This document shows positions 561-54,952 of a stretch of 64,000 nucleotides of DNA, in pieces. Positions within the stretch are counted from its first letter, which is position 1. Every line of letters starts with the position of its first letter. Position numbers and translations under genes: made by a program. The stretch spans positions 1 to 64,000 of the forward strand of contig URCB01000004.1 in the NCBI GenBank assembly GCA_900546255.1, written 5' to 3'. The notes below the pieces were generated by a model. It was not told the DNA's origin and made no database searches. It saw only the letters and a list, made by a program, of their open reading frames with translations. Source of the DNA: an uncultured Eubacteriales bacterium. GTDB lineage: Bacteria > Bacillota > Clostridia > Oscillospirales > Oscillospiraceae.

Positions 561-1484
561 ATGCCCATTAAAATTCCCAACTCTCTCCCCGCCCGCGAAA
601 CTCTGGAGGGCGAGAATATCTTTGTCATGACGGAGTACCGGGCCATCCACCAGGACATCCGGCCCCTCAACCTGCTCATTCTCAACCTGATGCCCACCAA
701 GATCGCCACAGAGACCCAGCTGCTGCGGAAATTCTCCAACACCCCCCTGCAGATCCAGGTGGAACTGCTGCAGACCATCAGCCACGACGCCCAGAACGTG
801 GACCGGAGCCACCTGGAGTCCTTCTACACCTCCTACGACCAGATCAAGGACAAGAACTACGACGGCCTGGTCATCACCGGCGCCCCCGTGGAAAACCTGG
901 ACTTTGAGACGGTGGACTACTGGGAGGAGCTGTGCCAGATCATGGAGTGGTCCAAAACCCATGTGCACTCCACCCTGCACATCTGCTGGGGCGCCCAGGC
1001 GGGGCTCTACTACCATTATGGGATTCCCAAGTATGCCCTGCCCCAGAAACTCTTTGGGGTCTTTGACCACAGGGTACTCAAACCCTCCTCCCCCCTGTTC
1101 CGGGGATTTGACGACCGGTTCTATGCCCCCCACTCCCGGCACACGGAAGTGCTGGAGGAGGACATCCGCAAGGTCCCCGGTCTGGAAGTCCTGGCCGTGT
1201 CGGAGGAGGCCGGGGTGTTCGCTGTAAAAACCGAGGACAGCCGCCAGTTCTTTCTCCTGGGCCATCTGGAATACGACCGAAACACCCTGGCCCAGGAATA
1301 CTGGCGGGACGTGGACCGGGGGCTGGACATCCAGGTGCCCCGGCACTATTTCCCCAACGACGACCCCAACCAGACCCCCATTGTCCGGTGGCGCTCCGCC
1401 GGCCAACTGATCTACACCAACTGGCTCAACTACTATGTCTACCAAACCACCCCCTATGACCTGACCCGTCTGGACCGGACGTAA
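561..1484 (+). CDS. metAA: Homoserine O-acetyltransferase (MetA family)
   Basis: Activates homoserine with an acyl group in the first committed step of methionine synthesis (cytoplasmic). The 307-aa protein has the full MetA length. Cys142 in HICWGAQAG is the acyl nucleophile, and His235 and Glu237 in GHLEY complete the catalytic set. Residue 111 is Glu (GAPVENLD); in characterised MetA proteins Glu111 goes with acetyl-CoA and Gly111 with succinyl-CoA, so acetyl specificity is predicted. ATG 561 follows GGAGG at 549. The gene is monocistronic and divergent from the rRNA operon. Confidence 0.93.
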
Positions 1485-1540: not shown

Positions 1541-1569
1541 TTGACAAACGCCCCCTTCTCTTGTATTAT
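1541..1569 (+). promoter_or_regulatory. Consensus promoter of the large ncRNA
   Basis: TTGACA (1541-1546), exactly 17 nt, TATTAT (1564-1569). It lies 56 nt after the metA stop and has no protein-coding gene downstream before two terminators. It therefore most likely drives the RNA at 1576-2171. Confidence 0.8.
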
Positions 1570-1575
1570 TTAGAC

Positions 1576-2171
1576 AGAGAAAGGGAGACGGAACTTCAAG
1601 AGAACTTCCAAAATCCCAATCTCAAATCCTCCCAATCAAAATTGGTGCATAGAAAGGATCGGTGAGTCCCATGGGCGATGTAGCAGAGTCCTTTCAGAGT
1701 GCATGGGCACCACTGCATTGAGAAAGACAAGATGTAACAGGGCGTTCTTCCCTTGGTGGCTCCGTCCTCGTTCCTTGTAGTTCAGCAGAGGCTGTTTTGG
1801 TGGTGGCTCATGAAAAATCTCTGACCAACGGCCCCCGCAAACTGTTCGCAATCGCGGTAATTCTTCCTGTTAGTTGAAGATAAAACGATAGACGACCGAC
1901 AATCGAATAACGAGTAAGTTTACAAGTACAAGCGCGTTTTTCGACAGAGTGGTTGAAAGGGTAGTAAGGTTATAAGCTACGCAAGTATCCCCTGTATGGG
2001 TTTTCTTTGGATGACCTGGGTGTGATTCATGTTGTTGCTTCGCCGATGGCCCTGTTCCTTGCAAAGCAATGGACATGTGGCAACTCGCCACGCACCCCTG
2101 TACGATCAAAGAGGCGTAGACCTGTCGAACTTATTGCAGTGGGTATTCCAAGCGGAATACCCACTGTTTTT
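1576..2171 (+). ncRNA. Large structured non-coding RNA, family unassigned
   Basis: About 600 nt between a consensus promoter and tandem terminators, with no ribosome-bound ORF on either strand. Perfect or near-perfect complementary segments nest in order. 3' domain: 1940-1947 with 2122-2129 (TTCGACAG/CTGTCGAA), 1977-1982 with 2114-2119 (CTACGC/GCGTAG), 2018-2024 with 2091-2097, 2028-2032 with 2073-2077, 2035-2040 with 2064-2069, and a local hairpin at 2078-2090. 5' domain: 1644-1648 with 1707-1711, 1652-1658 with 1689-1695, and a CCAAT/ATTGG hairpin at 1633-1646. Size and layout recall the giant RNAs (OLE, ROOL, GOLLD), but I cannot match it to any from memory. Function unknown. Confidence 0.7.
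2138..2171 (+). terminator. Intrinsic terminator 1 of the large ncRNA
   Basis: Perfect 12-bp stem AGTGGGTATTCC / GGAATACCCACT with a 4-nt AAGC loop, followed by GTTTTT. Confidence 0.88.
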
Positions 2172-2179: not shown

Positions 2180-2213
2180 GGCCCCATGCCACGAATGGCA
2201 TGGGGCCTTTTTT
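2180..2213 (+). terminator. Intrinsic terminator 2 (backup)
   Basis: Perfect 12-bp stem GGCCCCATGCCA / TGGCATGGGGCC with a CGAA loop, then six Ts. It abuts the stop codon of the convergent MBL gene. On the minus strand it lacks a good U-tract, so it mainly serves the ncRNA. Confidence 0.88.
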
Positions 2214-9683: not shown

Positions 9684-9730
9684 AAAAAAGCAGAGCCGCC
9701 GCATTTGGCCCATGCCAAATACAGCGCCTC
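9684..9730 (-). terminator. Riboswitch expression platform terminator
   Basis: Minus strand: a GC-rich hairpin centred on ATTTGGC/GCCAAAT (within 9691-9730), followed by CTTTTTTATA (T-run 9689-9684). It lies between aptamer 2 and the gcvT ribosome site, so transcription is probably attenuated unless glycine binds. Confidence 0.65.
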
Positions 9731-9731
9731 C

Positions 9732-9874
9732 GTAATCCGACCTGAAAGATTCTCCGCCGGGGCGGATTGCCTCTTCGGTGCGTCTCCCGCTCTCCGGAGT
9801 CTCGTCCGAAACCGGTCCTTTTGCCTGAGAGTTTTCGCAGCCCCTTCGGCTCCGCTGGCGCGGCATCTCCCGGT
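9732..9874 (-). promoter_or_regulatory. Tandem glycine riboswitch
   Basis: Two consecutive aptamers on the minus strand. Aptamer 1 (about 9874-9790) has GGGAGATGCC, GCCGAAGGGGC and ACTCTCAGGCAAAAGGACC. Aptamer 2 (about 9795-9732) has CGGGAGACGCACCGAAG and GAATCTTTCAGGTC. These are the conserved cores of glycine aptamers joined by a short linker. The downstream terminator and gcv operon match the known glycine-activated arrangement. Confidence 0.93.
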
Positions 9875-9961
9875 TTCCTCATCCGAACCATATCCCATTG
9901 GGTGCTGGGTGCGGTTTTGTTTGGCTCCACGAACCGTGGAGCACCGCAATTTCTGTGTTCT

Positions 9962-38773: not shown

Positions 38774-38805
38774 AAAAAAGCTCCCTGATGGTCAGGGAGC
38801 TTTTT
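38774..38805 (-). terminator. tRNA-Val terminator (chromosomal side)
   Basis: Perfect stem AAAAAGCTCCCTGA / TCAGGGAGCTTTTT with T-run, immediately after the CCA end of the left tRNA-Val. Before island insertion it would have ended the single tRNA gene. Confidence 0.85.
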
Positions 38806-38883
38806 GGTGGACGATACAGGACTTGAACCTGTGACCTCCCGCACGTCAAGCGGATGCTCATACCAGCTGAGCTAATCGTCCGT
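38804..38883 (-). repeat. Left attachment repeat (att), 80 bp
   Basis: Identical over all 80 bases to 54953-55032; similarity stops sharply on both sides. It contains the entire tRNA-Val gene plus 1-2 nt on each side. The exact crossover point within it cannot be told. Confidence 0.92.
38805..38881 (-). tRNA. tRNA-Val (anticodon GAC), left copy
   Basis: 77 nt cloverleaf on the minus strand: acceptor GGACGAT/ATCGTCC, anticodon loop TTGACGT, T-arm ACAGG-TTCAAGT-CCTGT, discriminator A and encoded CCA. Its promoter-proximal side lies within the island, its 3' side against the chromosomal terminator. Confidence 0.95.
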
Positions 38884-38933
38884 GAACCAATCGCACAGAA
38901 AAGCACTGGTTTTATTGGGTTTCCCTGCCTGGG

Positions 38934-38962
38934 AGTATAGCATAGTTCCTGGACGAATGCAA
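38934..38962 (-). promoter_or_regulatory. Island-borne promoter of the left tRNA-Val
   Basis: Minus strand TTGCAT (38962-38957), 17-nt spacer, TATACT (38939-38934). The island thus supplies its own promoter to the regenerated tRNA gene. Confidence 0.72.
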
Positions 38963-38998
38963 GGGATAACCGCGGGGAAGCAGGCGATTTGACGCGGT

Positions 38999-39020
38999 TT
39001 GTTGACCTGCTTGTTGACCT
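38999..39020. repeat. Left arm-type integrase repeats
   Basis: Two TTGTTGACCT copies 12 bp apart (38999 and 39011). The same pair with the same period occurs at 54833-54854. Likely integrase or excisionase arm sites. Confidence 0.7.
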
Positions 39021-39215
39021 AAAATAAGCGGTGTTTTCCTTGGTAGGTAAGGGGGTTCTTGGGAAAAGTGAGCGAAAAAAGGGGGAGAATTTTGAAGGGT
39101 TTGCTTGGATTGGGGGGACATTTTGAGCTTTTTCCATAATACAACACTTACCCTTTTCCTTCCCATAAAATAAAAAAATCATCATTCGCGGCCTTTGGTA
39201 AGGGGGTATGGGGGA

Positions 39216-39287
39216 TACCTTTCCCCCGCAGGTGTTGCGCTTGCAGGCCGCAGGCCGAAAGCGTAACAGTTGGTCGTGGGAAAGGTA
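39216..39287. other. Nested inverted repeats, oriT-like candidate
   Basis: Outer TACCTTTCCC (39216-39225) with GGGAAAGGTA (39278-39287); inner GTTGCGCTT (39234-39242) with AAGCGTAAC (39259-39267, one wobble); a GGTAT/ATACC hairpin just to the left. Such structures occur at transfer origins of clostridial mobile elements. No relaxase is encoded here. From 39021 to 39215 I see nothing else. Confidence 0.4.
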
Positions 39288-39444
39288 ATTTCCCCCAGAG
39301 TGCGCAAAAGGATTGAAAATAGAAACAGGGGGATGGTATGCAACATGAAAAACCATGGAGAGAAAAAGCGTGCGTGTGGTAGAACCGTTTAGGAAGCGCG
39401 TAATAAGAAAATTATGAGCCATTCAACGCATTTATTCCACGGTT

Positions 39445-39567
39445 CCTCTTGTCATGACGCTTTGGCCGGTGTGTTTTTAGGCAACCGCCGGCAAGCCCAC
39501 GCGGCCTGCGGCCTTCTTGGGTTGCCTGGCGGCAAAGCCTAACACACCGGCCTTTCATGACAAGAGG
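39445..39567. repeat. Very long hairpin (123 nt)
   Basis: Arms pair in sequence: 13 bp perfect (39445-39457 / 39555-39567), 10 bp perfect (39464-39473 / 39543-39552), TAGGC/GCCTA (39478-39482 / 39537-39541), and CAAGCCCA / TGGGTTG (39492-39499 / 39518-39524). No credible ORF runs through it. It could be a replication or transfer structure or a structured RNA. Confidence 0.75.
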
Positions 39568-39619
39568 ACTTTCGCGGCATAAACGCTTATGAATGATAGT
39601 AATAAATAAAATAATTTTC

Positions 39620-39648
39620 TTGACAAATACCAAAAGATATAGTAAAAT
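39620..39648 (+). promoter_or_regulatory. Promoter of the island unknown gene
   Basis: TTGACA (39620-39625), 17-nt spacer, TAAAAT (39643-39648), in an AT-rich stretch. Confidence 0.78.
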
Positions 39649-39654
39649 AAAATT

Positions 39655-39718
39655 GTTACTTTTTGTATGTATTATATTTAATCTCTAGAAAAAGGATATT
39701 ATATACATAAAAAGTAAC
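39655..39718. repeat. Long inverted repeat at the transcription start
   Basis: Left arm GTTACTTTTT... (39655-39677) and right arm ...AAAAAGTAAC (39697-39718) are complementary over about 20 bp with one bulge. It begins at the expected start of transcription, so it may be an operator for the downstream protein or a 5' leader stem. Confidence 0.6.
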
Positions 39719-39750
39719 ATTTTTAAACAACCACAAAAGGAGGGATAAAC

Positions 39751-41037
39751 ATCCGAATTTCTCATGAATTATTTTCTCATTTAAGATCAGGGCAGATATT
39801 TTCTAACTTTACCGACCTATACTTCAATGTTACTGGGGAGCGGCTTAAGGCTGGTGGACGAAATAAGCAGTTGATTGAAAATGAATTTGCAAGGCACATA
39901 AAATATTGTAAACATCATGACATTGATCCAACAGTTCCTTCCAAACGAGAAATTTTGATCCAGGAAGTGTATGATGCCCCTTTGGATCGCATCGAAACCC
40001 GAGGAAAATACGGCGAATATATCGTTCTCGTAAAACCGCTATTGCTCACTAAAGGTAGTTTTCGGGGAACTTTAAATCGGTTGCTATGGGAGCTAGGCCT
40101 TTTTAAAACAACCAATGATCATTGGACAACACAAGAAAATCATTGGAAAATATCATTCTCTGAGCGTGTACCACAGGGAAGGATTTATTATGACCGAACA
40201 CTATGCCATATTAGTAAGCAGGTAATTTCTCGTGGGCTAGACTCTTTAGAAAAAGATGGAATCATTAATTTGAAAACGTACTATTGTTTTAGACCTATAA
40301 AATATACTCTAATTGATGGAATCTATAGCAAAAAGATTCTGAATCAAGAAGTTTCGACAGGAATGATCGAAGAAGCTCTAAAAAAAGATGAAAATACAGC
40401 GATTACACTTGTTGAAATCAAAGAATTATGCCAAAACATAAGAGACAATAGTTGGTTTGATGGGACCGGAAGAGGGGGATCATCGGTTTTCCCAGAAAAG
40501 GACAACGATTTGATTCTAAAGTTAATAACCTTTATGAAGCAATATGCTTACAAATTGTACGAAGAAACGGAAACACTGCCGACAATGGATGAATTACCCA
40601 ATGAGTATGACTTTTTTAGGAAACCTCAACTAAACCTAGCCTATCGCAGTCTTATCCAAGCTTTCTATCCCTATCTGATTGGTTGTGAATATATCTGGAA
40701 AGGGATTGCATATGGTTTGACAGAATATGGAAAGGAATATGCGAAGCAGGTCCTCTATGGCTTTGATATTCCTACAGCCGTAAGAGATCTCAGTTGCCGA
40801 CTCTTAAGCCGCATGGGCAGACAAATGAAAAAAATCAAAATTTGGTGTCAGAGCAGAGAAGAATACAAAGATAGCGATTTCCTCCTCCCTCCAAATAGGA
40901 GAATGCGGGGTGACAAGGAAAGTAAAATTTTCATTCCGCAGTCACTACCTCTTTGGAATAGCGTTTCTGCATACGAACGGCATAAAGCGTTAAATGCTTT
41001 ATATGACATAAAAATCGAACCACAAACTCAGGAATAA
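39751..41037 (+). CDS. Winged-helix-like protein of unknown function, possible initiator
   Basis: I do not recognise this protein. 428 aa if started at ATC 39751, 388 aa from TTG 39871. AT-rich, basic, with a winged-helix-like stretch (ISKQVISRGLDSLEKDGIINL, near 155-175). A perfect AGGAGG lies 7 nt before ATC 39751; no ATG or GTG exists in frame for the first ~200 codons, and the frame is open and protein-like from 39751. TTG 39871 has only a weak SD. The position next to large hairpins, and the inverted repeat at its promoter, would suit an autoregulated replication or excision protein, but this is inference. Confidence 0.65.
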   Translation: MRISHELFSHLRSGQIFSNFTDLYFNVTGERLKAGGRNKQLIENEFARHIKYCKHHDIDPTVPSKREILIQEVYDAPLDRIETRGKYGEYIVLVKPLLLTKGSFRGTLNRLLWELGLFKTTNDHWTTQENHWKISFSERVPQGRIYYDRTLCHISKQVISRGLDSLEKDGIINLKTYYCFRPIKYTLIDGIYSKKILNQEVSTGMIEEALKKDENTAITLVEIKELCQNIRDNSWFDGTGRGGSSVFPEKDNDLILKLITFMKQYAYKLYEETETLPTMDELPNEYDFFRKPQLNLAYRSLIQAFYPYLIGCEYIWKGIAYGLTEYGKEYAKQVLYGFDIPTAVRDLSCRLLSRMGRQMKKIKIWCQSREEYKDSDFLLPPNRRMRGDKESKIFIPQSLPLWNSVSAYERHKALNALYDIKIEPQTQE

Positions 41038-41091
41038 ATATTGTTTTATAAACATTTCCCAAGGTGATTATAGACATCACCTTGGGATTTT

Positions 41092-41400
41092 TTATTTCTC
41101 TTGTTTTCTTCTCCAAAGCAAAAACCGCTCGTATTCTGCCAACTCTTCTAATTCTTGCTGGGTAAATGACTCCAACCGGCGGCGTTGGATATAGCTGGGG
41201 TCTACATTGGACAGCCCCAAAAGATAATCCGACGAAACTCGGTACATTTTGCAGATGTTTACTAAGATTTCATGCGCAGGAGAGCTCTTCTCCTGTTCCC
41301 AGCTTCGCACAGTGGCCACAGAGACATTCAGTTTTTTGGCAAGGGAAGATTGGGTGTCTCCGTGATCCTTTCTGACTTCGGATAAGCGCTCTCCGATCAT
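41092..41400 (-). CDS. XRE-family helix-turn-helix regulator
   Basis: 102 aa; N-terminal XRE domain (IGERLSEVRKDHGDTQSSLAKKL, SVATVRSWEQEKSSPA, about 2-60) and a short helical tail. ATG 41400 is preceded by GGAGG at 8 nt; GTG 41409 would overlap the SD. Divergent from the helicase operon, whose promoter holds an inverted repeat over the -35, so it probably controls that operon much like a restriction-system controller protein. Confidence 0.85.
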   Translation of the reverse strand: MIGERLSEVRKDHGDTQSSLAKKLNVSVATVRSWEQEKSSPAHEILVNICKMYRVSSDYLLGLSNVDPSYIQRRRLESFTQQELEELAEYERFLLWRRKQEK

Positions 41401-41450
41401 TTCCACCACCTCCGCCCATTTAGTGTAAAGATTTTTATGAGGGAAGGTGT

Positions 41451-41496
41451 AAAACTGCGAAAAATCTTGTCAGTTTTTGGGTTGACATGATATAAT
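41451..41496 (+). promoter_or_regulatory. Defence operon promoter with operator-like repeat
   Basis: TTGTCA (41467-41472), 18-nt spacer, TATAAT (41491-41496). A perfect 7-bp inverted repeat AAAACTG...CAGTTTT (41451-41457 / 41471-41477) covers the -35. Two GTGTAAA copies lie further upstream toward the XRE gene (from 41422 and 41447). Confidence 0.6.
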
Positions 41497-41562
41497 CCTT
41501 ATTAGTTCAGAGTGAAAACAACGGAAAAATTACTAGTCCAGAAGAAGAAAGGGAGCAGAACC

Positions 41563-41625
41563 ATGGCGGATGACGGGTTAACAGGAAGGAATCTTCTTCA
41601 CCTGCTATTTGTCGACGGCCTCTAA
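41563..41625 (+). CDS. Possible 20-aa leader peptide
   Basis: ATG 41563 with GGGAG 7 nt upstream opens MADDGLTGRNLLHLLFVDGL then TAA, between the operon promoter and the helicase gene. It may be a leader peptide or a truncated former start of the operon. No regulatory codon run is obvious. Confidence 0.35.
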   Translation: MADDGLTGRNLLHLLFVDGL

Positions 41626-41690
41626 GCAACGCATTGAAAGTACTCCCCAAAATAACCAAAGGTGAAATAGAGAACAGAGAGCGGAATCAT

Positions 41691-44600
41691 ATGAAAATTA
41701 TTAATAACATCACAAATACCCTAGCAGAGGATCTTCGTGCTACTGTTACGGGAAACAGTTCACTTTCCATTGCTGCTGCCTGTTTTTCGGTCTATGCCTA
41801 TGAAGAGCTTAAGACCCAGCTGGAGCAGATAAAACAGCTGCGCTTCCTATTCACAGCACCGACCTTTCTTCCAGAGCAGGACACCAAAGAACAAAGAGAA
41901 TTTTACATCCCCCGAAAAAACCGGGAACAAACACTCCACGGCAGCGAGTTTGAAATCCGCTTACGCAATGAGTTGAACCAAAAAACCATTGCGCGGGAGT
42001 GTGCAGATTGGATTCGCCGAAAGGTCACCTTTAAATCCAACTGCACCCAGGAGACCATGCCCGGTTTCCTTGTTGTTGACCAGGCGGAACCTGTCGTATA
42101 TGCGCCGGTCAACGGCCTGACCCGCGCCGACCTCGGCTGCGAGCGGGGCGACAACTTGCTCAGCATGATCCAGCAGCTAGATGCCCCAGAGACAAAGGCG
42201 TATCTTGCTGTATTTGATCAACTATGGGCCGACAAAAAGAGAATGCAGAATGTAACAGAGCAAGTCTTGGAAAGCATTACCTCGGCATACCAAGAGAATA
42301 GTCCAGAGTTTTTATATTTCTTTGCCCTTTACAACATTTTTAACGACTTTTTAGAGCATGTCAGTGAAGATGATCTCCCTAACGATGCCAATGGCTTTCG
42401 GGATAGTCAAGTATGGAACAAACTTTATACCTTCCAAAAGGATGCGGTGTTGGCCATCATCAATAAGCTGGAGCAATACAATGGCTGTATCCTGGCCGAC
42501 AGTGTGGGACTGGGCAAGACCTTTACCGCCCTGGCAGTCATCAAGTACTACGAAAACCGAAATATGCGGGTGCTAGTTCTTTGCCCTAAGAAGCTGAGCG
42601 ATAACTGGATGACCTATAAGGCGAACTACGTGAATAATCCGATTGCCGGGGACCGGCTGCGCTACGACGTGTTGTACCACACGGATCTCTCCCGAACCAG
42701 GGGACATTCCGGGGAAATAGACTTAGCAAAACTCAATTGGGCGGCCTATGATCTGGTAGTGATTGACGAGTCCCACAATTTCCGAAACGGTGGCAGCGGT
42801 CACGTGGAGGATGGGAAGTACAACCGCTATGACAATTTGATGGAAAAGGTGATCCGCCCTGGCGCTCGTACTCGAGTTCTGATGCTCTCTGCCACACCGG
42901 TCAACAATCGCTTCTATGATCTGCGTAATCAGTTGGCCTTGGCTTACGAGGGGAACAGCGCAACCTGGAAAGAAAAGATGCACACCAGCCGTAACGTGGA
43001 AGAGATATTCCGCAATGCACAAAAAGTTTTTAACGAGTGGAGTGAACAGGATCAAGAGTTTCGCACTACCGACCAACTTCTGCGGATGCTGGACTTTGAT
43101 TTCTTTGAAATCCTAGATGCCGTAACCATCGCCCGCTCCCGCCGTCACATTGAGAAATACTATAACGTGGAAGAGGTGGGCAAGTTCCCCATTCGGTTAC
43201 CCCCCATCTCCAAGCGTCCTTCACTGACAGACCTGGACCAAGCCGTGACGTACAATGAGATTTATGACCTGCTTCTTAGCCTGACTTTGAGCATTTATAC
43301 TCCTTCCAACTATATCCTCCCAAGTCGGATAGGCAAGTATGCCAGTTTAAATCATGAAGGAAAAAACCATCTGACCCAGGCTGGGCGGGAACAGGGGATC
43401 CGGAGGCTGATGAGCATCAATCTCCTCAAGCGGTTGGAAAGCTCAGTCCACGCTTTCCAGCTGACCCTACAACGGATTCAAGAGCAGGTTTCCCGTACAC
43501 TGGAAAAAATTGAACAGTTTGATCCCAATCTCACCCTAGAGCTTCAGGACTTCACCGGTGCTGGAGACCTGGATGCGGACGACCAGGAAAGCGACCTGTT
43601 CTCTGTAGGCCGAAAGGTGCGGATCAAGCTGGAAGACATGGACTACCTGGCTTGGCAACATGACCTGGAGGAAGATTTTAACACCCTCTATACGCTTACT
43701 GCTATGGTAGAAAAAATCACGCCAGAACATGACATCAAGCTCCAAATGCTGCTGGATACCATTGCCAAAAAGGTAGAGCATCCTATCAACCCCGGGAATC
43801 GAAAGGTCATTATATTTACTGCGTTCTCGGATACCGCGGAATATTTGTATGACCATGTCGGGGCGTTTGTTCAAGAAAAATATAGCCTCAATACTGCCCT
43901 AGTTACTGGTTCTGTTGCAGGCCGTACCACTGCCAAACTGCCTCCCAAGACAAAGGCCGATTTAAACACGATTCTAACCTGCTTTTCGCCTCGATCCAAA
44001 GATCGGGAAGCATTGATGCCCAATGGGCCGGATATTGATATGCTCATTGCCACTGACTGCATCTCCGAGGGACAGAATTTGCAGGACTGCGACTGTCTCA
44101 TCAACTATGACATTCACTGGAATCCCGTCCGCCTGGTGCAGCGATTCGGGCGAGTAGACCGGATTGGCAGCCAAAACGACGTGATCCAAATGATTAACTT
44201 CTGGCCGGACATGCAGCTGGATGACTACATCAATCTGAAAGCTCGCGTAGAAACCCGGATGAAAGCCCTGGTCATGGCCTCTACAGGAGATGACAACCTC
44301 CTCTCTCCGGAAGAGCAGGGCGATCTAGAATACCGTCGGGAGCAACTCCAGCGCCTCCAGACCGAGGTAGTTGATCTGGAGGACATGAACAGTGGCGTGT
44401 CCATTACGGACCTGGGCCTCAACGAATTCCGTATGGAGCTCATGGAGTACGCCAAACAACACCCTGAGCTGGAGAAAACCCCAGGGGGGATCAGTGCCGT
44501 CACCTCGGCCACGCCAGATGCCCCTGCCGGTATCATTTTCATCCTGAAGAACGTGCACCAAGAGGTGAATGTGGACAACCGTAACCGCCTCCACCCGTAC

Positions 44601-44927
44601 TACCTCGTCTACTTGGATGAAGAGGGCATCACCATTCATGACCACCTTTCCCCCAAGGCCACCCTGGACGCTATGCGGCAGCTGTGTCGTGGCAAAACCG
44701 ATCCCATTCCAGAACTCTACCAAGCCTTCAACCAGGAGACGGAGGACGGGCGAAACATGGCAGTTTACTCTAGCCTACTGGAGGATGCCGTGCTGTCCAT
44801 TGTGGACGCCAAAGAGGACAGTGACCTGGACAGCCTCTTCCGGGCCGGGGGAACTTCCGCGTTACTGAGCCAAGTGTCTGGGCTGGATGATTTCCAACTG
44901 GTCTGTTTCCTCGTGATTCGATCCTAA
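41691..44927 (+). CDS. SNF2/RapA-type helicase with N-terminal PLD-like region
   Basis: 1078 aa from ATG 41691 (a TTG at 41634 would add 19 residues; SD is weak for both). The N-terminal ~170 residues begin SLSIAAACFSVYAYEELK, like phospholipase-D-type domains fused to such helicases, but I see no HKD motif. Superfamily 2 motifs: ADSVGLGKTFTA (~268-279), IDESHNF (~356), LSATPVNN (~398), ATDCISEGQNLQ (~786) and QRFGRVDRIGSQND (~817). Likely moves along or remodels DNA for the downstream methylase/nuclease. DISARM DrmD is a comparable helicase, but other DISARM genes are missing. Confidence 0.85.
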   Translation: MKIINNITNTLAEDLRATVTGNSSLSIAAACFSVYAYEELKTQLEQIKQLRFLFTAPTFLPEQDTKEQREFYIPRKNREQTLHGSEFEIRLRNELNQKTIARECADWIRRKVTFKSNCTQETMPGFLVVDQAEPVVYAPVNGLTRADLGCERGDNLLSMIQQLDAPETKAYLAVFDQLWADKKRMQNVTEQVLESITSAYQENSPEFLYFFALYNIFNDFLEHVSEDDLPNDANGFRDSQVWNKLYTFQKDAVLAIINKLEQYNGCILADSVGLGKTFTALAVIKYYENRNMRVLVLCPKKLSDNWMTYKANYVNNPIAGDRLRYDVLYHTDLSRTRGHSGEIDLAKLNWAAYDLVVIDESHNFRNGGSGHVEDGKYNRYDNLMEKVIRPGARTRVLMLSATPVNNRFYDLRNQLALAYEGNSATWKEKMHTSRNVEEIFRNAQKVFNEWSEQDQEFRTTDQLLRMLDFDFFEILDAVTIARSRRHIEKYYNVEEVGKFPIRLPPISKRPSLTDLDQAVTYNEIYDLLLSLTLSIYTPSNYILPSRIGKYASLNHEGKNHLTQAGREQGIRRLMSINLLKRLESSVHAFQLTLQRIQEQVSRTLEKIEQFDPNLTLELQDFTGAGDLDADDQESDLFSVGRKVRIKLEDMDYLAWQHDLEEDFNTLYTLTAMVEKITPEHDIKLQMLLDTIAKKVEHPINPGNRKVIIFTAFSDTAEYLYDHVGAFVQEKYSLNTALVTGSVAGRTTAKLPPKTKADLNTILTCFSPRSKDREALMPNGPDIDMLIATDCISEGQNLQDCDCLINYDIHWNPVRLVQRFGRVDRIGSQNDVIQMINFWPDMQLDDYINLKARVETRMKALVMASTGDDNLLSPEEQGDLEYRREQLQRLQTEVVDLEDMNSGVSITDLGLNEFRMELMEYAKQHPELEKTPGGISAVTSATPDAPAGIIFILKNVHQEVNVDNRNRLHPYYLVYLDEEGITIHDHLSPKATLDAMRQLCRGKTDPIPELYQAFNQETEDGRNMAVYSSLLEDAVLSIVDAKEDSDLDSLFRAGGTSALLSQVSGLDDFQLVCFLVIRS

Positions 44928-44941
44928 AGGAGGGATTTCTC

Positions 44942-45589
44942 ATGCTGACATTCCCTGCTGCTACCACTTTCGGCCGTCGGATCCCCAAGCAAAAGTTTTA
45001 CCAACACCTGGATGTTGCCGCGGATGTCAAGCGCCTGTTTGTAGAGCAAGTGAAGCTCATCACCTGGGCCAACAAACTCTCCGCCCAGACCATGAACCTG
45101 GCCCCCGGGGAGCACGTCCAGGAGATCGAGGTCTTCCACATTCAGCTCCAGGGCCAGGACCTGGACGAGCGGGTGTGCCGCCTCATGGACCAGCAAATCC
45201 CCTACCATTTGCTCTTCTGGCTGGAGCGGCCGGATGGTCTCCAGCGGCTTCAGATCACCTACAAGGAGGCCAGCCAGAACGGGCACAATGCCTTCCAACT
45301 GCGGGGCAGCTACCAGACCGACTGGACCAACCCAGAGGACCTGACCCTGGACCTCACCGCCCTGGACCTGGATGGGTTGTATGAATCCATCGTCCGCCAG
45401 ATTGCCGGGGATGCCATTACGGCCCCCCAGGCAGAGAGTTTGAAGGAAGCCGTGGAGCAGACCCAGGCGCGGGAAAAGCTGGAGAAACAGATTGCGGCGC
45501 TGCGGGTGAAGATTAGGAAGGAAAAGAGTCTGGCAAAGCAGATGGAGATGAGAAGGGAGATTATGAGATTGGCGAGAGAGGAACCATGA
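44942..45589 (+). CDS. DUF4391-like protein
   Basis: 215 aa, GC-rich. I assign it tentatively to DUF4391, proteins usually found between such a helicase and a type III-like methylase; no catalytic function is established that I know of. C-terminal ~45 residues (EAVEQTQAREKLEKQIAALRVKIRKEKSLAKQMEMRREI) form a coiled coil. AAAGGAGG precedes ATG 44942, 14 nt after the helicase stop. Its stop overlaps the next start (ATGA). Confidence 0.7.
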   Translation: MLTFPAATTFGRRIPKQKFYQHLDVAADVKRLFVEQVKLITWANKLSAQTMNLAPGEHVQEIEVFHIQLQGQDLDERVCRLMDQQIPYHLLFWLERPDGLQRLQITYKEASQNGHNAFQLRGSYQTDWTNPEDLTLDLTALDLDGLYESIVRQIAGDAITAPQAESLKEAVEQTQAREKLEKQIAALRVKIRKEKSLAKQMEMRREIMRLAREEP

Positions 45590-46149
45590 CTTTCTCAGAT
45601 TGTATTGGGATACTTGGAGTCATAGTTAGCACCTTTTTAGGGGCACTGGCGATATGGCAGAATCATCAATATAAAAAACAATCTGAAAAGTTCACAGATT
45701 TGCAGTTTATGCCTGAATTTTTCTTGGTTGAGAACGATGGGTATATCGGAATGGCTCCGCAGGATGGCATGGATGAAGTCACAAGTATGGGATATGGATA
45801 CACACAAAATCTCGGAAAATATGCTGCTGTAAATACCCCGATATATGATTTAAGTATATCGGAAGTTACTATTGACGGAAACCGTGTAGATACAGACGGC
45901 GAAGCACAATTAAAAGCGGTAAATATATATCCGACAAATCCATACTTCCGTATTCAGATTTCGATTCCAGAAGGAATTATCAGGTCACCAATGCGCCACA
46001 AAGGAATCGTGCTCTTAACATACGAGAGCATGTACGGAGTAAAATACAAAAAGCAAATCAGTTTTATATATCAATTTGAAGCTCCAGGAAAAGCGGTTCA
46101 CAGCCGGGAGATAAAAAGCAAACGAGCGGAGAGATACAAAAATGGATAA
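45586..46149 (+). CDS. Small membrane-anchored protein of unknown function
   Basis: 187 aa, not recognised. One N-terminal transmembrane helix (IGILGVIVSTFLGALAIW, about 8-25), then a soluble beta-rich region. AT-rich, unlike the genes on both sides. Start overlaps the DUF4391 stop by 4 nt, and its end overlaps the Mod start by 8 nt, so it is translated as part of the operon. It could be an effector or simply a passenger. Confidence 0.75.
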   Translation: MTFSDCIGILGVIVSTFLGALAIWQNHQYKKQSEKFTDLQFMPEFFLVENDGYIGMAPQDGMDEVTSMGYGYTQNLGKYAAVNTPIYDLSISEVTIDGNRVDTDGEAQLKAVNIYPTNPYFRIQISIPEGIIRSPMRHKGIVLLTYESMYGVKYKKQISFIYQFEAPGKAVHSREIKSKRAERYKNG

Positions 46150-48040
46150 ACTAAAATTTGAAACGCCGGACATGACGGCAGAGAATATTGAAAAAATCGC
46201 CCAACTCTTTCCCTCCGCCATCACGGAAATGCGGGACGAGGACGGCAAACTCAAAAAGGCCGTCAACTTTGAGATCCTCAAGCAACTGCTGTCCCCCGAT
46301 GTGGTGGACGGGGACGAGTGTTATGAGTTCACCTGGGTGGGTAAGAAGGCCGCCATGGCCGAGGCCGCCCGTCCCACCACCAAGACCCTGCGCCCAGTCA
46401 AGGAGGACAGCCGCAACTGGGACACCACCGAAAACCTGTACATTGAAGGAGACAACCTGGAGGTACTGAAAATCCTCCAAGAGAGCTATCTGGGCAAGAT
46501 CAAGATGATTTATATTGACCCGCCGTATAATACGGGAAGCGATAGATTCATATATCTTGATGATTTTGAGATGTCGCAGGATGAGTACGATGATGTATCT
46601 GGATTATATGATAAGAATGGGAACAAAGTTTTGCATGAGAATAACAAAAGCAATCCCAAATTCCATTCCAAATGGTGTTCCATGATATACCAGCGACTAT
46701 TGATGGTGAGAAACTGTTTAGCGGATGATGGTGCTATTTTCATTTCTATCGATGATAATGAGCAAGAAAACATGAAGAAGATTTGTGATGAGATATTCGG
46801 CGAAGATAATCTTGTTAACTGCTTCATTTGGAATTGCTCTACTGCCGGTGGAATTCGACCCAAGTTCGCCAGTAAAACTCACGAGTATATCATCTGTTAC
46901 GCAAAGAAGAAAAATAATTTATCCATGTTCTTTGCCCCCCTTTCTTCTGATGCGAAGAAAATGTATACTCAGAAAGATGAGAAGGGGTTATATCGTGATA
47001 AAGACTTTGCTTTCAAGAACAAATCCACAAATGTTAATCAGAAATATTTTATTGAATGTCCAGATGGCGAAAAAGTAAAGCCTAAAGAGGGGTACATCTA
47101 TCGTTTTATTCGGGAACGTTTTAATGACGCATTAAACGAAGGATTAGTTACTTTCAAAAGGACAAATACAGGTCCATTAGTGACTGAAAATGGTAACCAA
47201 GCGCACTGGAACATTTATATCAAGAAATATCTTGGAGATGCCATGGGCGCACCGTCAACTCTTGTCCCCAAAGAAATGATGAGCATATACAATGTAGGAA
47301 CGCAGTGTGTTCAAGATCTCTTCGATGGGACTCGCGTGTTTGAAAATGCAAAGCCGGTAGATATGATAACATATTTATTGAAACTGTCAGGGAGCAAGGA
47401 TTCTATCATACTCGACTTCTTCTCCGGCTCCGCCACTACCGCCCACGCGGTCATGCAGCTCAACGCCGAGGACGGCGGACACCGGAAATTTATCATGGTT
47501 CAAATCCCGGAGCCCTGTGACGAAAAGTCCGAGGCCTTCAAGGCTGGATATAAAAATATCTGTGAGATCGGCAAAGAGCGCATCCGCCGAGCGGGGGACA
47601 AGATCAAGACCGAGCACCCGGACGCTGACCTGGACATTGGCTTCCGCGTCTTCCGGGTGGACGAGAGCAACATGAAGGATGTCTACTACCACCCGGAGGA
47701 ATACACCCAGCAGGCCATCGGCGGCATGGTGTCCAACATCAAGGAGGACCGCACCGACCTGGACCTGCTCTACGCCTGCCTGCTGGGCTGGGGGGTGGAG
47801 ATCCACCTGCCCCACACCAGCCAGGTGATCGACGGCTGCACCGTCCACAACGTGGACAACGGGGCTCTGCTGGCCTGTTTTAACGCCAAGGTTCCCACCA
47901 CTGTGGTGGAGCACATGGCCAAGGAACAGCCCCTTCGGGCGGTGTTCCGGGACAGCGCCTTTGCCAGCGACGCGGACAAGATCAACGTGGCGGAGATCTT
48001 TAAAAACTTGTCTCCGGACACGCAGGTAAGGGTGATTTAA
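46142..48040 (+). CDS. mod: Type III Mod-like adenine DNA methyltransferase
   Basis: 632 aa beta-class N6-adenine methylase: motif IV DPPYNTGS (126-133) precedes motif I DFFSGSATTAHA (~423-434), with the recognition region between. Partner Res lies downstream, as in type III systems. Base composition switches abruptly: GC-rich up to ~46505, AT-rich to ~47410, GC-rich again, the switches falling at motif IV and motif I. This indicates exchange of the recognition region by recombination at conserved motifs. Confidence 0.9.
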   Translation: MDKLKFETPDMTAENIEKIAQLFPSAITEMRDEDGKLKKAVNFEILKQLLSPDVVDGDECYEFTWVGKKAAMAEAARPTTKTLRPVKEDSRNWDTTENLYIEGDNLEVLKILQESYLGKIKMIYIDPPYNTGSDRFIYLDDFEMSQDEYDDVSGLYDKNGNKVLHENNKSNPKFHSKWCSMIYQRLLMVRNCLADDGAIFISIDDNEQENMKKICDEIFGEDNLVNCFIWNCSTAGGIRPKFASKTHEYIICYAKKKNNLSMFFAPLSSDAKKMYTQKDEKGLYRDKDFAFKNKSTNVNQKYFIECPDGEKVKPKEGYIYRFIRERFNDALNEGLVTFKRTNTGPLVTENGNQAHWNIYIKKYLGDAMGAPSTLVPKEMMSIYNVGTQCVQDLFDGTRVFENAKPVDMITYLLKLSGSKDSIILDFFSGSATTAHAVMQLNAEDGGHRKFIMVQIPEPCDEKSEAFKAGYKNICEIGKERIRRAGDKIKTEHPDADLDIGFRVFRVDESNMKDVYYHPEEYTQQAIGGMVSNIKEDRTDLDLLYACLLGWGVEIHLPHTSQVIDGCTVHNVDNGALLACFNAKVPTTVVEHMAKEQPLRAVFRDSAFASDADKINVAEIFKNLSPDTQVRVI

Positions 48041-48056
48041 GCGAGGAAATAGAGAG

Positions 48057-48578
48057 ATGCGGAAAATCAATAAGGTAGATTATTTCTGTGGTGCGTTCCT
48101 ATCGTACTTAATTGCAAACGGCGTGGAGCCCACGCTCTTCGAAGCAGGAGAAAAAAGCAAAGTCGTTGAGTTTACGATTCGCGATGTTGTTTATAAAGTC
48201 TTTTTTAAGTACTCCACGAAGAAAAGGGTCATTGTAAAACAGGCCAAATCATACGACACTTGGAATGTCGTGTTTGCTGAAAAGGAATTGTCTCTTCTCG
48301 AAACGTTTGGGGACAACTGTAAAAAAGTAGCCGTTATCTGCATTTGTACCGATGAAAAATTAAAAGATGCTGACATTGCCGTGATACCTTATGAGGATGC
48401 TTGTAAATGCCTGGGACTGATGCAGGATGCAATCAACAAGCAAAGAACGATTGCGGTTCGGCATCTCAAGGGAAGCTCCAAATTGCTATGTCATGGTACG
48501 GGACTCTCTCAAGACAATGCAATTGAGGTTCCACACAATTTTGAGAAGTTTTTTGGACTCGAGGGCAACGAAATATGA
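48057..48578 (+). CDS. Unknown protein encoded between Mod and Res
   Basis: 173 aa, not recognised. AT-rich; mixed alpha/beta pattern with charged strands (KVVEFTIRDVVYKVFFKYS, KKVAVICICTDEK) that could fit a nuclease-like or sensor fold, but no catalytic motif is clear. GAGGAAATAGAG precedes ATG 48057, and its end overlaps the Res start by 4 nt (ATGA). Coupled expression implies a role with, or passenger status in, the system. Confidence 0.7.
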   Translation: MRKINKVDYFCGAFLSYLIANGVEPTLFEAGEKSKVVEFTIRDVVYKVFFKYSTKKRVIVKQAKSYDTWNVVFAEKELSLLETFGDNCKKVAVICICTDEKLKDADIAVIPYEDACKCLGLMQDAINKQRTIAVRHLKGSSKLLCHGTGLSQDNAIEVPHNFEKFFGLEGNEI

Positions 48579-51500
48579 AACTCCAATTCAAACACCAACC
48601 CTTCCAGGCCGATGCTGCCGCAGCAGTGTGTGACGTGTTCCTGGGCCAGCCTCGGCGCACGTTCACCTATCGCCGGGATCTGGGAGACCAAATTGGCCTA
48701 CAGCAAGAGATTGGCATGGGAGATACCGGCTTTCGCAACCATCCTTTGGTGCCGGAATTGACCCGGTCCCGGCTGCTGGAAAATCTGCGCACGGTCCAGC
48801 GTCGGAATGGGCTGAAACCCTCCGAAGATTTGGCTGGCCCAGGGATCAACCTGTCCATTGAAATGGAGACCGGCACAGGAAAGACCTATACCTATGTAAA
48901 GACCATTTATGAGCTTAACCAGCGGTACGGTTGGAGTAAGTTCATCATTGTGGTTCCTTCCGTGGCCATTCGGGAGGGAGTCTATAAGTCCCTCCAGACC
49001 ACCCAGGAACACTTCGCGGGGGAATATGGGAAAAAGCTGCGGTTCTTTATCTACTCCTCCGACCGGCTTACGGAGATTGACCGCTTTGCCGCTGACAGTT
49101 CCATCAACGTGATGATCATCAACATGCAGGCCTTCAACTCCAGCAAGAACCAAAAGATCATCGATAAAAAGCTGGACGCCTTCCGTAGCCGCCGGCCCAT
49201 TGATATCATTGCCAAAACCAATCCCATCCTGATCATTGACGAGCCCCAGAGTGTAGAGGGCAAGACCACCAAGGAAAGCTTGAAAAAGTTCAATGCTCTC
49301 TTTACCCTTCGCTATTCCGCCACCCTAAAGGAACGGTATGATGTGGTTTACCGGTTGGATGCCATGGATGCCTATAACCAGCACTTAGTGAAGAAGATTG
49401 CTGCTCTGGGTGTAACGCTGACAGGATCCACTGCCACCAACAGTTTTATCTACTTGGAAGGCATTGACCTTTATAAAAACAAAGCACCCACCGCTCGTTT
49501 AGGGTTCGAGGTCAAGGGAGCCACCGGAACCAAGACGGTTGTGAAGAAAGTGGCCGGCGGAGACGACCTCTTCCTCCTTTCCAATGGGCTGGATGAGTAT
49601 AAAGACCGGTTTGTCATTCTTCCAGATGGCATTGACGGGCGGGACAATTCGGTGACCTTTCTCAACGGTTTGAAGCTCTATGCCGGGCAGATCAGCGGAA
49701 ACGAAGCTATGATTGCCCTCCAGCGCCGGGTGCAAATCCGGGAAACCATCCGAACGCACATTCAGCGAGAGCGGGAACTGTACCCCAAAGGCATCAAGGT
49801 ACTGAGTTTGTTCTTCATTGACGAGGTCTCCAAATACCGCCTGTATGACGGGGACAACGACGATGGCCGCAACGGGGAATACGCCAAAATTTTTGAAGAA
49901 GAGTATGAAAATGTCGTAAAGACCTTTCAGACGGAGATACAAGGAGAGGCCTATCTCCAATATCTGGACAGCATTGACGTTCACCAAACCCACCAAGGGT
50001 ATTTCTCCATCGATAAGAAAAAAGGGAAAAAGGCCCGTTTTGTGGAGGGCAAGATCAATAAGAAAACCCAGACCTCCGATGATGCTGACGCCTATGACCT
50101 CATCATGAAGGACAAGGAGCGCCTGCTGAACCTAGAGGAGCCGGTACGGTTTATTTTCTCCCACTCTGCCCTTCGAGAGGGATGGGACAACCCCAATGTC
50201 TTCCAGATTTGCACCCTAAAACCCCAAAGTGATTCTGAGATTCGCAGCCGGCAAGAGATTGGCCGGGGTCTGCGGTTGTGCGTCAACCAGCAAGGGGAAC
50301 GCATGGACGAGAGTGTGTTAGGTGCAGACGTGCAGGAGTTAAACAAGCTGACGCTCATCACCGACATGGAGTTTGGCCTGTTTGCGGAGGCATTGCAGAG
50401 TGGATTGGCAGAGTCCCTGGCAGACCGGCCGCGGAAAGTGGATGTTGGGTTGTTTAAGAATCAAGTGCTGACCAATGCCCAGGGAGAGCCCGTTAAGGTA
50501 ACCCAGGATCTCGCGGAGGCGATCTATGAGGATTTGGTTAGCAGTGGCTATGTGAAACGGGGCGCCCTCACAGACAAGTACTACGAGGACAAAGCCAATG
50601 GAGAGATCCATGTGGCAGAAGAAGTGGAGGACTGTGCCGTTTCGGTCGTGCAGCTCCTCTCTACCGTATATGATACGCGGGCGATTCAGCTGGAGGATTC
50701 CCACAACAACAATGTAGAAGCGAAAGTAGATCCCGAACAGTTCCAGAAAAAAGAGTTCCAGGCATTGTGGGCACGGATCAACCACAAGTCATTCTATACG
50801 GTTTCCTTTGACACCCAAGAGCTCATCAACCACGCCATTCAGGCATTGGATCAAAAGTTAGACGTTACCCGGGTACAGGTCAATCTGGAATATGGGGAGC
50901 AGTCCGCACATTTGGACTCTCGCGAGCAGCTGGAAGAAGGGGCCGGCTTCCAGAAAACCCGCACAGACCGGGAAATGACCCAACACGCACCGTTGGGAAG
51001 TGTACGCTATGATCTTGTGGGCAAATTGGTCGAAGAGACAGGTCTGACACGAGCAACTGTTGCAGCCATCCTTCAGGGAATCCTTCCGCAAAAGTTCTCC
51101 CTGTTCCGGATCAATCCCGAGGAATTTATTTTAAAGGCAGCCAAACTCATCAACAATCAAAAAGCCAGTCAGATTATCGAGCATATTGTCTATAATAAGC
51201 TGGACGCTACCTATGACAGCAGTGTATTCACCTCTGCAACCCTAAGGGGAAAGCTTGGTCTTAATGCCATGGAGGCAAGCCATAGCTTATATACACATGT
51301 AATTTATGACTCTAAAAATGAGAAAAAGTTTGCAGAAGAATTGGATATCAGCGAAAACGTGGCGGTTTACGTAAAGTTGCCGGGGAGTTTCTTCATTTCT
51401 ACTCCCGTGGGAAAGTATAACCCCGACTGGGCCATCGCATTTCATGAAGGGGCTGTACAACATATTTATTTTGTAGCAGAGACCAAAGGAAACCTAAACA

Positions 51501-51664
51501 GTATGGAACTACGCGGGATAGAAAAGGCCAAAATCGAATGTGCTAAAGCCCACTTTGCTGTCATCAGCAACGAGAGCGTTCTGTATCAGGTTGTAGATAA
51601 CTACAGCACTTTGATGCAAATTGTAACGAATACGCTCCCGCCAGCGCAAAACGCAAAGGGGTGA
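48575..51664 (+). CDS. res: Type III Res-like restriction helicase-nuclease
   Basis: 1029 aa: Walker A METGTGKTYTY (97-107), Walker B variant IDEPQ (~219-223) as in type III Res, FSHSALREGWDNPNVFQI and RQEIGRGLRL helicase motifs (~525-570), and a C-terminal PD-(D/E)XK nuclease site NPDWAI (~949) and ETKG (~968). ATP-dependent translocation then cleavage of unmethylated DNA is predicted. Start overlaps the preceding small gene. Confidence 0.9.
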   Translation: MKLQFKHQPFQADAAAAVCDVFLGQPRRTFTYRRDLGDQIGLQQEIGMGDTGFRNHPLVPELTRSRLLENLRTVQRRNGLKPSEDLAGPGINLSIEMETGTGKTYTYVKTIYELNQRYGWSKFIIVVPSVAIREGVYKSLQTTQEHFAGEYGKKLRFFIYSSDRLTEIDRFAADSSINVMIINMQAFNSSKNQKIIDKKLDAFRSRRPIDIIAKTNPILIIDEPQSVEGKTTKESLKKFNALFTLRYSATLKERYDVVYRLDAMDAYNQHLVKKIAALGVTLTGSTATNSFIYLEGIDLYKNKAPTARLGFEVKGATGTKTVVKKVAGGDDLFLLSNGLDEYKDRFVILPDGIDGRDNSVTFLNGLKLYAGQISGNEAMIALQRRVQIRETIRTHIQRERELYPKGIKVLSLFFIDEVSKYRLYDGDNDDGRNGEYAKIFEEEYENVVKTFQTEIQGEAYLQYLDSIDVHQTHQGYFSIDKKKGKKARFVEGKINKKTQTSDDADAYDLIMKDKERLLNLEEPVRFIFSHSALREGWDNPNVFQICTLKPQSDSEIRSRQEIGRGLRLCVNQQGERMDESVLGADVQELNKLTLITDMEFGLFAEALQSGLAESLADRPRKVDVGLFKNQVLTNAQGEPVKVTQDLAEAIYEDLVSSGYVKRGALTDKYYEDKANGEIHVAEEVEDCAVSVVQLLSTVYDTRAIQLEDSHNNNVEAKVDPEQFQKKEFQALWARINHKSFYTVSFDTQELINHAIQALDQKLDVTRVQVNLEYGEQSAHLDSREQLEEGAGFQKTRTDREMTQHAPLGSVRYDLVGKLVEETGLTRATVAAILQGILPQKFSLFRINPEEFILKAAKLINNQKASQIIEHIVYNKLDATYDSSVFTSATLRGKLGLNAMEASHSLYTHVIYDSKNEKKFAEELDISENVAVYVKLPGSFFISTPVGKYNPDWAIAFHEGAVQHIYFVAETKGNLNSMELRGIEKAKIECAKAHFAVISNESVLYQVVDNYSTLMQIVTNTLPPAQNAKG

Positions 51665-51670
51665 ACCACT

Positions 51671-52111
51671 ATGGATGACCTTGGGACTGCTCTGCAAACC
51701 ATCCTTATTTTTGCCGTCCTACTCTCTACCATCCTCATCTCCTGGGTGGTAATCCGCTGGGCCAAGGGACCCGCTGCCAAAAACCGGGATCTGCCCAAAC
51801 TCAAGTTTCGGCAATTTCAGGCGTTATATTACTTAAACCCAGAGTCCTGGACTTTGGGAGAGCTCACCGCCACCTACGAAGGCGTGGGGGAATTTCGGTT
51901 CAGCTACTTGGGCGAGATTCGCTACGGCTTCTTCAAAAAGGAAGTGATTCACCAGAGAAAAAACCGGGCGAAAGCAGATCAAATTGAAAAACTACTGCTA
52001 AAAATCAACGCAGACATTGCCAAAGAGAAGCAGAAAAGCAACCGGTACTATCAGGAGTCTGCAGAGATTTTGAGCAACGTAAACCGAAAGAAGCCAGAGG
52101 ACAGCAGATAA
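51671..52111 (+). CDS. Small membrane protein with C-terminal coiled coil
   Basis: 146 aa, not recognised. Transmembrane helix at about 10-29 (TILIFAVLLSTILISWVVI), basic middle, then a helical coiled-coil tail (KADQIEKLLLKINADIAKEKQ). It lies 6 nt after the res stop and is likely the last gene of the operon. Confidence 0.7.
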   Translation: MDDLGTALQTILIFAVLLSTILISWVVIRWAKGPAAKNRDLPKLKFRQFQALYYLNPESWTLGELTATYEGVGEFRFSYLGEIRYGFFKKEVIHQRKNRAKADQIEKLLLKINADIAKEKQKSNRYYQESAEILSNVNRKKPEDSR

Positions 52112-53311: not shown

Positions 53312-53341
53312 GGAGGAAACCCGCCTAACCCAAACAGACCA

Positions 53342-53377
53342 AAGGCCCTTGATGTCTGCACGGACATCAGGGGCCTT
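53342..53377 (+). terminator. Probable terminator of the lipoprotein gene
   Basis: 15-bp stem AAGGCCCTTGATGTC / GACATCAGGGGCCTT with one wobble pair; the following tract is pyrimidine-rich rather than a pure T-run. 53378-53569 holds another hairpin (CTGGGGGA / TCCCCCAG near 53502) and no gene. Confidence 0.55.
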
Positions 53378-54772: not shown

Positions 54773-54832
54773 AGGTAGCATCCTTTCTCTTGGGCTTCCT
54801 GGCGTTGGATTCTACCCAGAAAATCGGCGATG

Positions 54833-54936: not shown

Positions 54937-54952
54937 TTTCTTGCTAAAAAAG

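Follow-up and report, generated by a model that had tools for sequence, protein, structure and literature searches.

A DNA stretch of 64,000 nucleotides (hereafter the window) comes from a bacterium closely related to Evtepia gabavorous, a gut species noted for consuming GABA. It carries what appears, from the comparison of five sequences, to be an autonomous gene for a structured RNA of about 600 nt with a very short open reading frame (ORF) near its 5′ end. At the level of sequence, this comparison demonstrates that the locus is conserved, that its promoter and terminator are retained, that structure in the 5′ domain has good support, that the ORF is maintained and that the unit is independent of its neighbours. 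We read the locus as a gene for a dual-function RNA, in which a peptide is combined with a structured RNA body, and which would be new as a family; we consider this reading about evenly balanced between right and wrong. Of the readings that account at once for the ORF and for the RNA body, both of them conserved, it is the simplest.

The transcription unit and its position in the window

The MetA protein encoded in the window shares 91% identity with its counterpart in strain KLE1738 of E. gabavorous, the best-known carrier of the RNA. At its left edge the window has the 5′ end of a minus-strand 16S rRNA gene. The RNA unit lies about 1.5 kb from this gene, between chromosomal genes: it is 3′ of metA, and a convergent gene (2213–2941) is found beyond its end. 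Its elements are as follows.

561–1484, plus strand: metA, the upstream neighbour, outside the RNA gene (91% identity to the E. gabavorous protein); we take its product to be homoserine O-succinyltransferase
1541–1569, plus strand: sigma-A-type promoter, with −35 box TTGACA (1541–1546), 17-nt spacer and −10 box TATTAT (1564–1569)
1576–2171, plus strand: predicted transcript unit of about 596 nt, its start placed from the −10 box and its end from the terminator
2136–2171, plus strand: intrinsic terminator 1, a 14-bp stem with a T-run
2180–2213, plus strand: intrinsic terminator 2, a 12-bp stem with a T-run

The promoter agrees with the consensus at 11 of 12 positions, and an AT-rich stretch is located immediately upstream. 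Both boxes are invariant in all five sequences, 11 of the 17 spacer positions are variable, and TTTAG.CAGAGA follows the promoter in every case. The hairpin of terminator 1 is also kept in all five, with pairs that changed on both sides (RNAalifold z-score of −9.98). The numbers of such signals do not exceed those in shuffled sequences (promoters, 1 versus 0.7±0.9; terminators, 2 versus 1.2±1.0), and for this reason the argument for a promoter and a terminator rests on their conservation. The consensus promoter and the two tandem terminators of the original prediction were borne out, and its proposal of an unassigned structured RNA of about 600 nt with its own promoter is supported.

A hairpin and T-run similar to terminator 2 can also be read 3′ of the RNA in one of the homologous loci (genome G301), where the downstream gene is convergent as well. 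By inspection, no such hairpin and T-run follow the RNA in the three other carriers (G001, G302 and G307), and terminator 2 was rejected as a part of the core RNA.

Elsewhere in the window, a genomic island of about 16 kb (38804–55032) lies between two tRNA-Val(GAC) genes, which share a perfect direct repeat of 80 bp (38804–38883 and 54953–55032). It carries a tyrosine-recombinase-like gene (53570–54781, minus strand) and ORFs that we read as an SNF2-like helicase (41634–44927), a type III-like methyltransferase (46142–48040) and a type III-like restriction subunit (48575–51664). It is probably an integrated defence island. A tandem glycine riboswitch with two aptamer matches was found at 9726–9882 on the minus strand, near genes read as glycine-cleavage genes.

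Homologues in the E. gabavorous lineage

A DNA search of 16 genomes of the E. gabavorous genus yielded 33 places at E values up to 1, distributed over 13 genomes, of which we kept the RNA-forming places in four carriers. Over the aligned letters these are 89% (G301), 72% (G001), 65% (G302) and 69% (G307) identical to the window, and as cut they measure 519–590 nt; the transcript predicted for strain KLE1738 is about 520 nt long. The alignment used throughout therefore holds five sequences, the window and its four homologues, two of which are 89% identical to each other. The discarded places were mostly short chance matches, together with a promoter-region similarity in three genomes (G303, G304 and G305; loci L086, L087 and L088). 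There, the similar sequence precedes a short conserved protein-coding gene and is unrelated to the RNA body.

The same 4 of 16 genomes were recovered with a covariance model built on the 5′ domain (R1); a second match in G301 at E up to 1, of 54 nt and 17.2 bits, was taken as chance. In wider samples, R1 matched 2 of 400 genomes of the family, 1 of 394 of the order and 1 of 391 of the class, a model of the 3′ domain (R2) matched 3 of 400 family genomes, and the DNA search matched 1 of 300. In the family, order and class samples every match was to one of the four carriers known from the genus; every sample was drawn from a larger group, the three family samples overlap, and searches of more than 40 genomes apply stricter filters, with which weak matches can be lost.

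The carriers are the genomes whose MetA is closest to that of the window (91–93%), and no copy of the RNA was detected in genus members with MetA identity of 89% or below. Two of the 16 genomes gave no metA match, and in these the absence of the RNA may reflect incomplete assemblies. When 80 metA loci were compared with nhmmer and blastn, only that of E. gabavorous itself (L001) matched the RNA. Searches of phages and plasmids gave no match, nor did two exact patterns in viral contigs. Homologues were also sought by way of antisense ORFs among database proteins; of the 23 candidates, none reached E 0.1. A degenerate DNA pattern representing the C-terminal portion of the encoded peptide occurred in the four carriers only, once in each, among the 16 genomes; the same pattern read backward, used as a control, occurred in none of the 16. 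Judging from these searches, the RNA gene is conserved and lineage-restricted.

A conserved short ORF

Two elements make up the putative coding part of the RNA.

1652–1665, plus strand: putative ribosome-binding region, GAAAGGA (1652–1658) and GGTGA (1661–1665), invariant in all five sequences
1671–1721, plus strand: short ORF MGDVAESFQSAWAPLH plus stop, 16 codons (15 in the other four homologues)

We take GAAAGGA and GGTGA to resemble a split extended Shine–Dalgarno sequence, AGAAAGGA..GGTGA, on the assumption of the usual anti-Shine–Dalgarno sequence, as the 3′ end of the 16S gene lies outside the window. The ORF overturns the statement in the original prediction that the RNA contains no ORF with a ribosome site. 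Its start and stop columns are common to all five sequences, with one change of the start from ATG to GTG and one in-frame indel of 3 nt. The peptides read MGDVAESFQSAWAPLH in the window, MGDVEFFQSAWAPLH, MGDAVSFQRAWAPLH, MGDTEFFQSVWAPLP and, from the GTG start, MGDAVSFQSAWAPLH. No other frame within the transcript has shared start and stop columns over at least eight codons. A possible second GTG start lies 9 nt upstream of 1671 in the same frame, and a further shared frame, of 10 codons from a TTG, overlaps the promoter, before the transcript begins.

The stretch that begins with the ribosome-binding region and ends at codon 3 varies solely in the A/G of the start codon. Without the start, the stop and three gapped columns, the ORF has 15 variable columns, which fall 1, 5 and 9 on codon positions 1, 2 and 3 (hypergeometric probability of 0.006 for so few at position 1 and 0.009 for so many at position 3). 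Of 20000 column shuffles, 0.35% were at least as high in BLOSUM62 similarity as the peptides, as were 1.1% of 5000 shuffles kept free of stops. The number of invariant amino-acid columns was not significant, being reached by 6.4% of shuffles and 6.7% of stop-free shuffles. Among 1000 shuffled alignments, 87, 46 and 19 produced a conserved ORF with a minimum length of 8, 12 and 15 codons, respectively. These tests, all on five sequences, are individually modest and mutually dependent, yet concordant, and the micro-ORF is probably translated.

Structure of the 5′ domain

Against shuffled sequences, the RNA of the window folds with a z-score of −2.21 with the terminator and −0.35 without it; the four homologues, terminator included, range from −1.30 to −1.82. 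A census of helices in the whole RNA is close to that in 12 shuffles (41 versus 37 expected with at least 6 pairs, and 6 versus 8.7 with at least 7). In RNAalifold analysis of the alignment, the whole RNA without the terminator reached a z-score of −2.8 (0 of 60 shuffles as low) and the middle region −0.51 (53 of 200 as low). The 5′ domain reached −43.1 kcal/mol compared with −27.1±3.4 for column shuffles, which corresponds to a z-score of −4.68, and none of 200 shuffles was as low. The leader motif and the elements of this domain are as follows.

1626–1633, plus strand: C-rich leader motif (A/T)TCCTCCC, present in all five sequences
1652–1695, plus strand: helix P1, 1652–1660 with 1686–1695, pairing the GAAAGGA element with ORF codons 6–9
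1696–1822, plus strand: 4-bp helix, 1696–1699 with 1819–1822, which never varies
1702–1812, plus strand: helix P2, 1702–1714 with 1799–1812, pairing ORF codons 11–15 with RNA about 85 nt downstream
1727–1778, plus strand: helix P3, 1727–1744 with 1763–1778
1783–1794, plus strand: hairpin P4, CAGC (1783–1786) with GCTG (1791–1794), invariant in all five and hence uninformative on covariation

In the 5′-domain structure 94.6% of cells are paired, compared with 41–49% when the partners are slid along each other. A control in which letters were shuffled averaged 93.3%, and 7 of 500 such shuffles reached 94.6%; the control is this high because 33 of the 52 pairs never vary. Four of the 52 pairs changed on both sides, as many as in 12 of 500 shuffles, and 24 of 500 attained the covariation score. 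Further pair types were no more numerous than in shuffles (461 of 500 had as many). P2 contributes two of the changed pairs (of 13; 92.3% of cells paired) and P3 the other two (of 15; 92.0%). In P1, 93.3% of cells are paired and no pair changed on both sides; one of its pairs is broken in one sequence and another in two.

The C-rich motif, UCCUCCC in the RNA, could be a pairing site for Shine–Dalgarno sequences of target mRNAs, which is a guess. Its predicted mean unpaired probability varies between 0.24 and 0.77, compared with transcript means of 0.37–0.38, so its accessibility is variable.

A conserved ORF with codon-like substitution had been named at the outset among the results that would speak against the original prediction. 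Such an ORF is present, and conserved structure coexists with it. A rival possibility is a purely non-coding structured RNA, of the scaffold or ornate kind, in which the ORF is a by-product of pairing in P1 and P2 and of constraint on an invariant RNA motif. The z-score of the 5′ domain speaks for such an RNA. The two-sided changes in P2 and P3 mean that pairing can explain a part of the ORF conservation, and 46 of 1000 shuffles, as given above, produce a conserved ORF at least 12 codons long. Conservation of the ORF could thus in part reflect P1/P2 pairing. However, pairing does not predict the bias towards third positions, the replacement of ATG by GTG, the in-frame indel or the shared stop, and we regard a purely non-coding RNA as unlikely, if still deserving of serious attention.

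Helices of the 3′ domain

With the automatic alignment, the 3′ domain is indistinguishable from shuffles (RNAalifold z-score of −0.01; 92 of 200 as low). Inspection revealed one-base register shifts in this part of the alignment, and nine candidate helices were examined post hoc by local window tests. Three nested helices, hand-picked after inspection, can plausibly form in all five sequences.

1915–1921 with 2127–2133, plus strand: closing helix UAAGUUU/GAACUUA, 6–10 bp across the five sequences
1977–1982 with 2114–2119, plus strand: CUACGC/GCGUAG, 6 bp, identical in four of five sequences
2018–2024 with 2091–2097, plus strand: GGGUGUG/CGCACCC (CRCACCC across sequences), 6–8 bp in all five

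Three pairs of the closing helix changed on both sides and three cells are broken; its score was matched by 4 of 4000 random window pairs when summed over the sequences and by 28 of 4000 for the weakest sequence. For CUACGC/GCGUAG, which in G307 is replaced by a different 6-bp helix (CACAUA/UGUGUG), the corresponding numbers were 4 and 8 of 4000. The score of the GGGUGUG helix was matched by none of 4000 random pairs on either measure.

Two other candidates were rejected. Perfect pairing of UUCGACAG/CUGUCGAA is confined to the window, G301 and G001; this helix is in competition with the closing one, and its weakest-sequence score was matched by 322 of 4000 random pairs. The candidate UCGACAG/CUGUACGA scored weakly (matched by 392 of 4000 for the sum and 90 of 4000 for the weakest sequence).

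Taken by comparison, the structure is well supported in the 5′ domain, plausible in the 3′ domain and unproven in the middle. The helices of the original prediction are accordingly supported for the 5′ domain and not supported for the 3′ domain as aligned; among the five nested helices that it placed there, three can form throughout, with the post hoc choice noted above, and the other two are unsupported. Its "giant ornate" RNA was too bold: strong comparative evidence for structure is limited to the 5′ domain, and that domain holds a conserved ORF with codon-like substitutions.

The extent of this structure also bears on another explanation, namely that the transcript is the mRNA of a functional peptide of 15–16 amino acids (such as a signal or a microprotein that binds a protein) and that the rest is a structured untranslated region which controls translation and stability. 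The conserved ORF with its ribosome-binding region would fit, as would the long near-invariant block that extends from this region into the first codons. Yet about 450 nt beyond the ORF keep conserved blocks and, adjoining the terminator, long-range helices, which exceeds the needs of an ordinary 3′ untranslated region, and inspection of the peptide reveals neither an export nor a processing signal. A peptide mRNA of this kind is, in our view, improbable.

A proposed model of competing translation and folding

The dual-function reading can be formulated as follows. An RNA of about 600 nt would be transcribed from the sigma-A-type promoter and ended by its own terminator, and a peptide of 15–16 amino acids would be translated near its 5′ end. 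The predicted 5′ domain encloses the ORF, and the 3′ domain would be closed by the long-range helix that adjoins the terminator. Since P1 is predicted to pair one of the Shine–Dalgarno-like elements with codons 6–9, and P2 to pair codons 11–15 with downstream RNA, the ORF overlaps both helices, and translation and folding of the 5′ domain should exclude each other. A ribosome that reads the ORF would have to open both helices, and translation should be held back by a folded 5′ domain. The RNA may alternate between a translated state, in which the peptide is made, and a folded state, whose body would act in trans, through base pairing or by binding a protein, as with RNAIII or SR1.

More tentatively, as a reading that we hold to be less likely than not, we suggest a new class of large RNAs in which the ORF sits within the core helices and the ribosome toggles the molecule between translated and trans-acting forms, a class present only in the lineage of Evtepia gabavorous. 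To our knowledge, few dual-function RNAs of about 600 nt have been described, and none that we are aware of comes from these gut Clostridia. If the model is true, it would add a new RNA family with a built-in peptide and offer a clear test of competition between translation and folding. It also suggests that large "non-coding" RNAs found by their structure deserve to be checked for very short ORFs.

Neighbouring genes

The gene metA stands directly upstream of the RNA in four of the five genomes (the window, G301, G001 and G307). In G302 some 10 kb separate it from the RNA; what precedes the RNA and its promoter there is another region, which we read as a TetR-like regulator and an acyl-CoA-synthetase-like gene; the position of metA suggests a local rearrangement. 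The G302 metA (locus L123) precedes a stretch read as a glycine-riboswitch leader and a gcvT-like gene. Downstream, a co-directional gene follows the RNA in G001, G302 and G307. G001 and G302 have two such genes, which can be read as a secreted-protein gene and then a lipoprotein gene, at least the first of them being present in G307. The window and G301 lack such a co-directional gene, their next gene being convergent. Because the neighbours vary while the promoter and terminator persist, the RNA is not tied to one neighbour, and we conclude from this arrangement that the locus is an autonomous gene.

The co-directional genes could nevertheless be taken to mean that the RNA is a cis-regulatory leader or attenuator with a leader peptide, and that the regulated gene was lost in the lineage of the window; an ORF that resembles a leader peptide and overlaps helices would suit this as well. 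The terminator, however, is kept in all five sequences, including the window and G301 with their convergent genes, and by inspection a separate promoter-like sequence precedes the downstream gene of G001. We consider an attenuator very improbable.

Comparison with known RNA families

A search of the whole window with the 4227 families of Rfam gave five matches at gathering thresholds, all of them to tRNA, the glycine riboswitch or 16S rRNA. Up to E 10, the segment 1480–2300 gave 10 matches and the four homologue loci 16, with none to OLE, ROOL, GOLLD, HEARO or raiA in either set. The best sub-threshold match in the segment, SdsR_RyeB (E 0.0086; 28 bits against a gathering threshold of 38), covers only the terminator hairpins (2140–2213) and was rejected; in the homologues the best was sX13 (E 0.13; 26.4 of 50 bits). 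By these searches, the locus is not a detectable member of the five large classes. The original prediction had left room for a diverged member of one of them, and the comparable size and free-standing transcription unit would agree with that, but no such model matched even below threshold and no OLE exceeded the cut-off in the four carrier genomes (with controls also negative), so that we give this explanation almost no weight.

The model of OLE (RF01071) has 616 positions. At the cut-off of 50 bits OLE was found in none of the four carrier genomes, nor in any of 14 control genomes, so there is no positive control for this search; two sub-threshold matches in the carriers, of 13.8 and 11.6 bits, lie on other contigs. 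OLE and the present RNA are alike in being structured and about 600 nt long, and differ in that no Rfam match exists at the present locus. A conserved ORF is, as far as we know, not a feature of OLE. OLE RNA is described as having protein partners such as OapA (PMC12286853). The same source presents ROOL and GOLLD as large structured RNAs of unknown cellular role that phages and prophages encode, in many cases close to tRNA islands (PMC12286853). The present RNA is likewise large and structured; unlike them, it sits between chromosomal genes and gave no match in the phage and viral-contig searches above.

A literature search on small or noncoding RNA in Evtepia returned nothing on the subject, judged by titles. 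A survey of human microbiomes reported 3161 candidate RNAs (PMC8040213), and the terms "Evtepia" and "Oscillospir" are absent from its main text; the present RNA may be among the entries of its supplementary tables.

Among features expected of dual-function RNAs, the locus has a conserved ORF with a putative ribosome-binding site inside the RNA in all five sequences and, as far as sequence and conservation indicate, its own promoter and terminator. RNAIII of Staphylococcus aureus is a free-standing, highly structured RNA of about 500–600 nt with a short 5′ ORF and C-rich motifs that could pair with Shine–Dalgarno sequences. The present RNA is similar in size, also free-standing, and has a short ORF at the 5′ end and a C-rich motif that could pair in the same manner. 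It differs from RNAIII in that no sequence relation was found (no Rfam match), the peptide of 15–16 amino acids does not read as delta-haemolysin-like, and no quorum-sensing locus is known to accompany it. SR1 of Bacillus subtilis is 205 nt long and encodes 39 amino acids (PMC8501984); the present RNA is about three times longer. By analogy, RNAIII and SR1 may be regarded as its closest working analogues.
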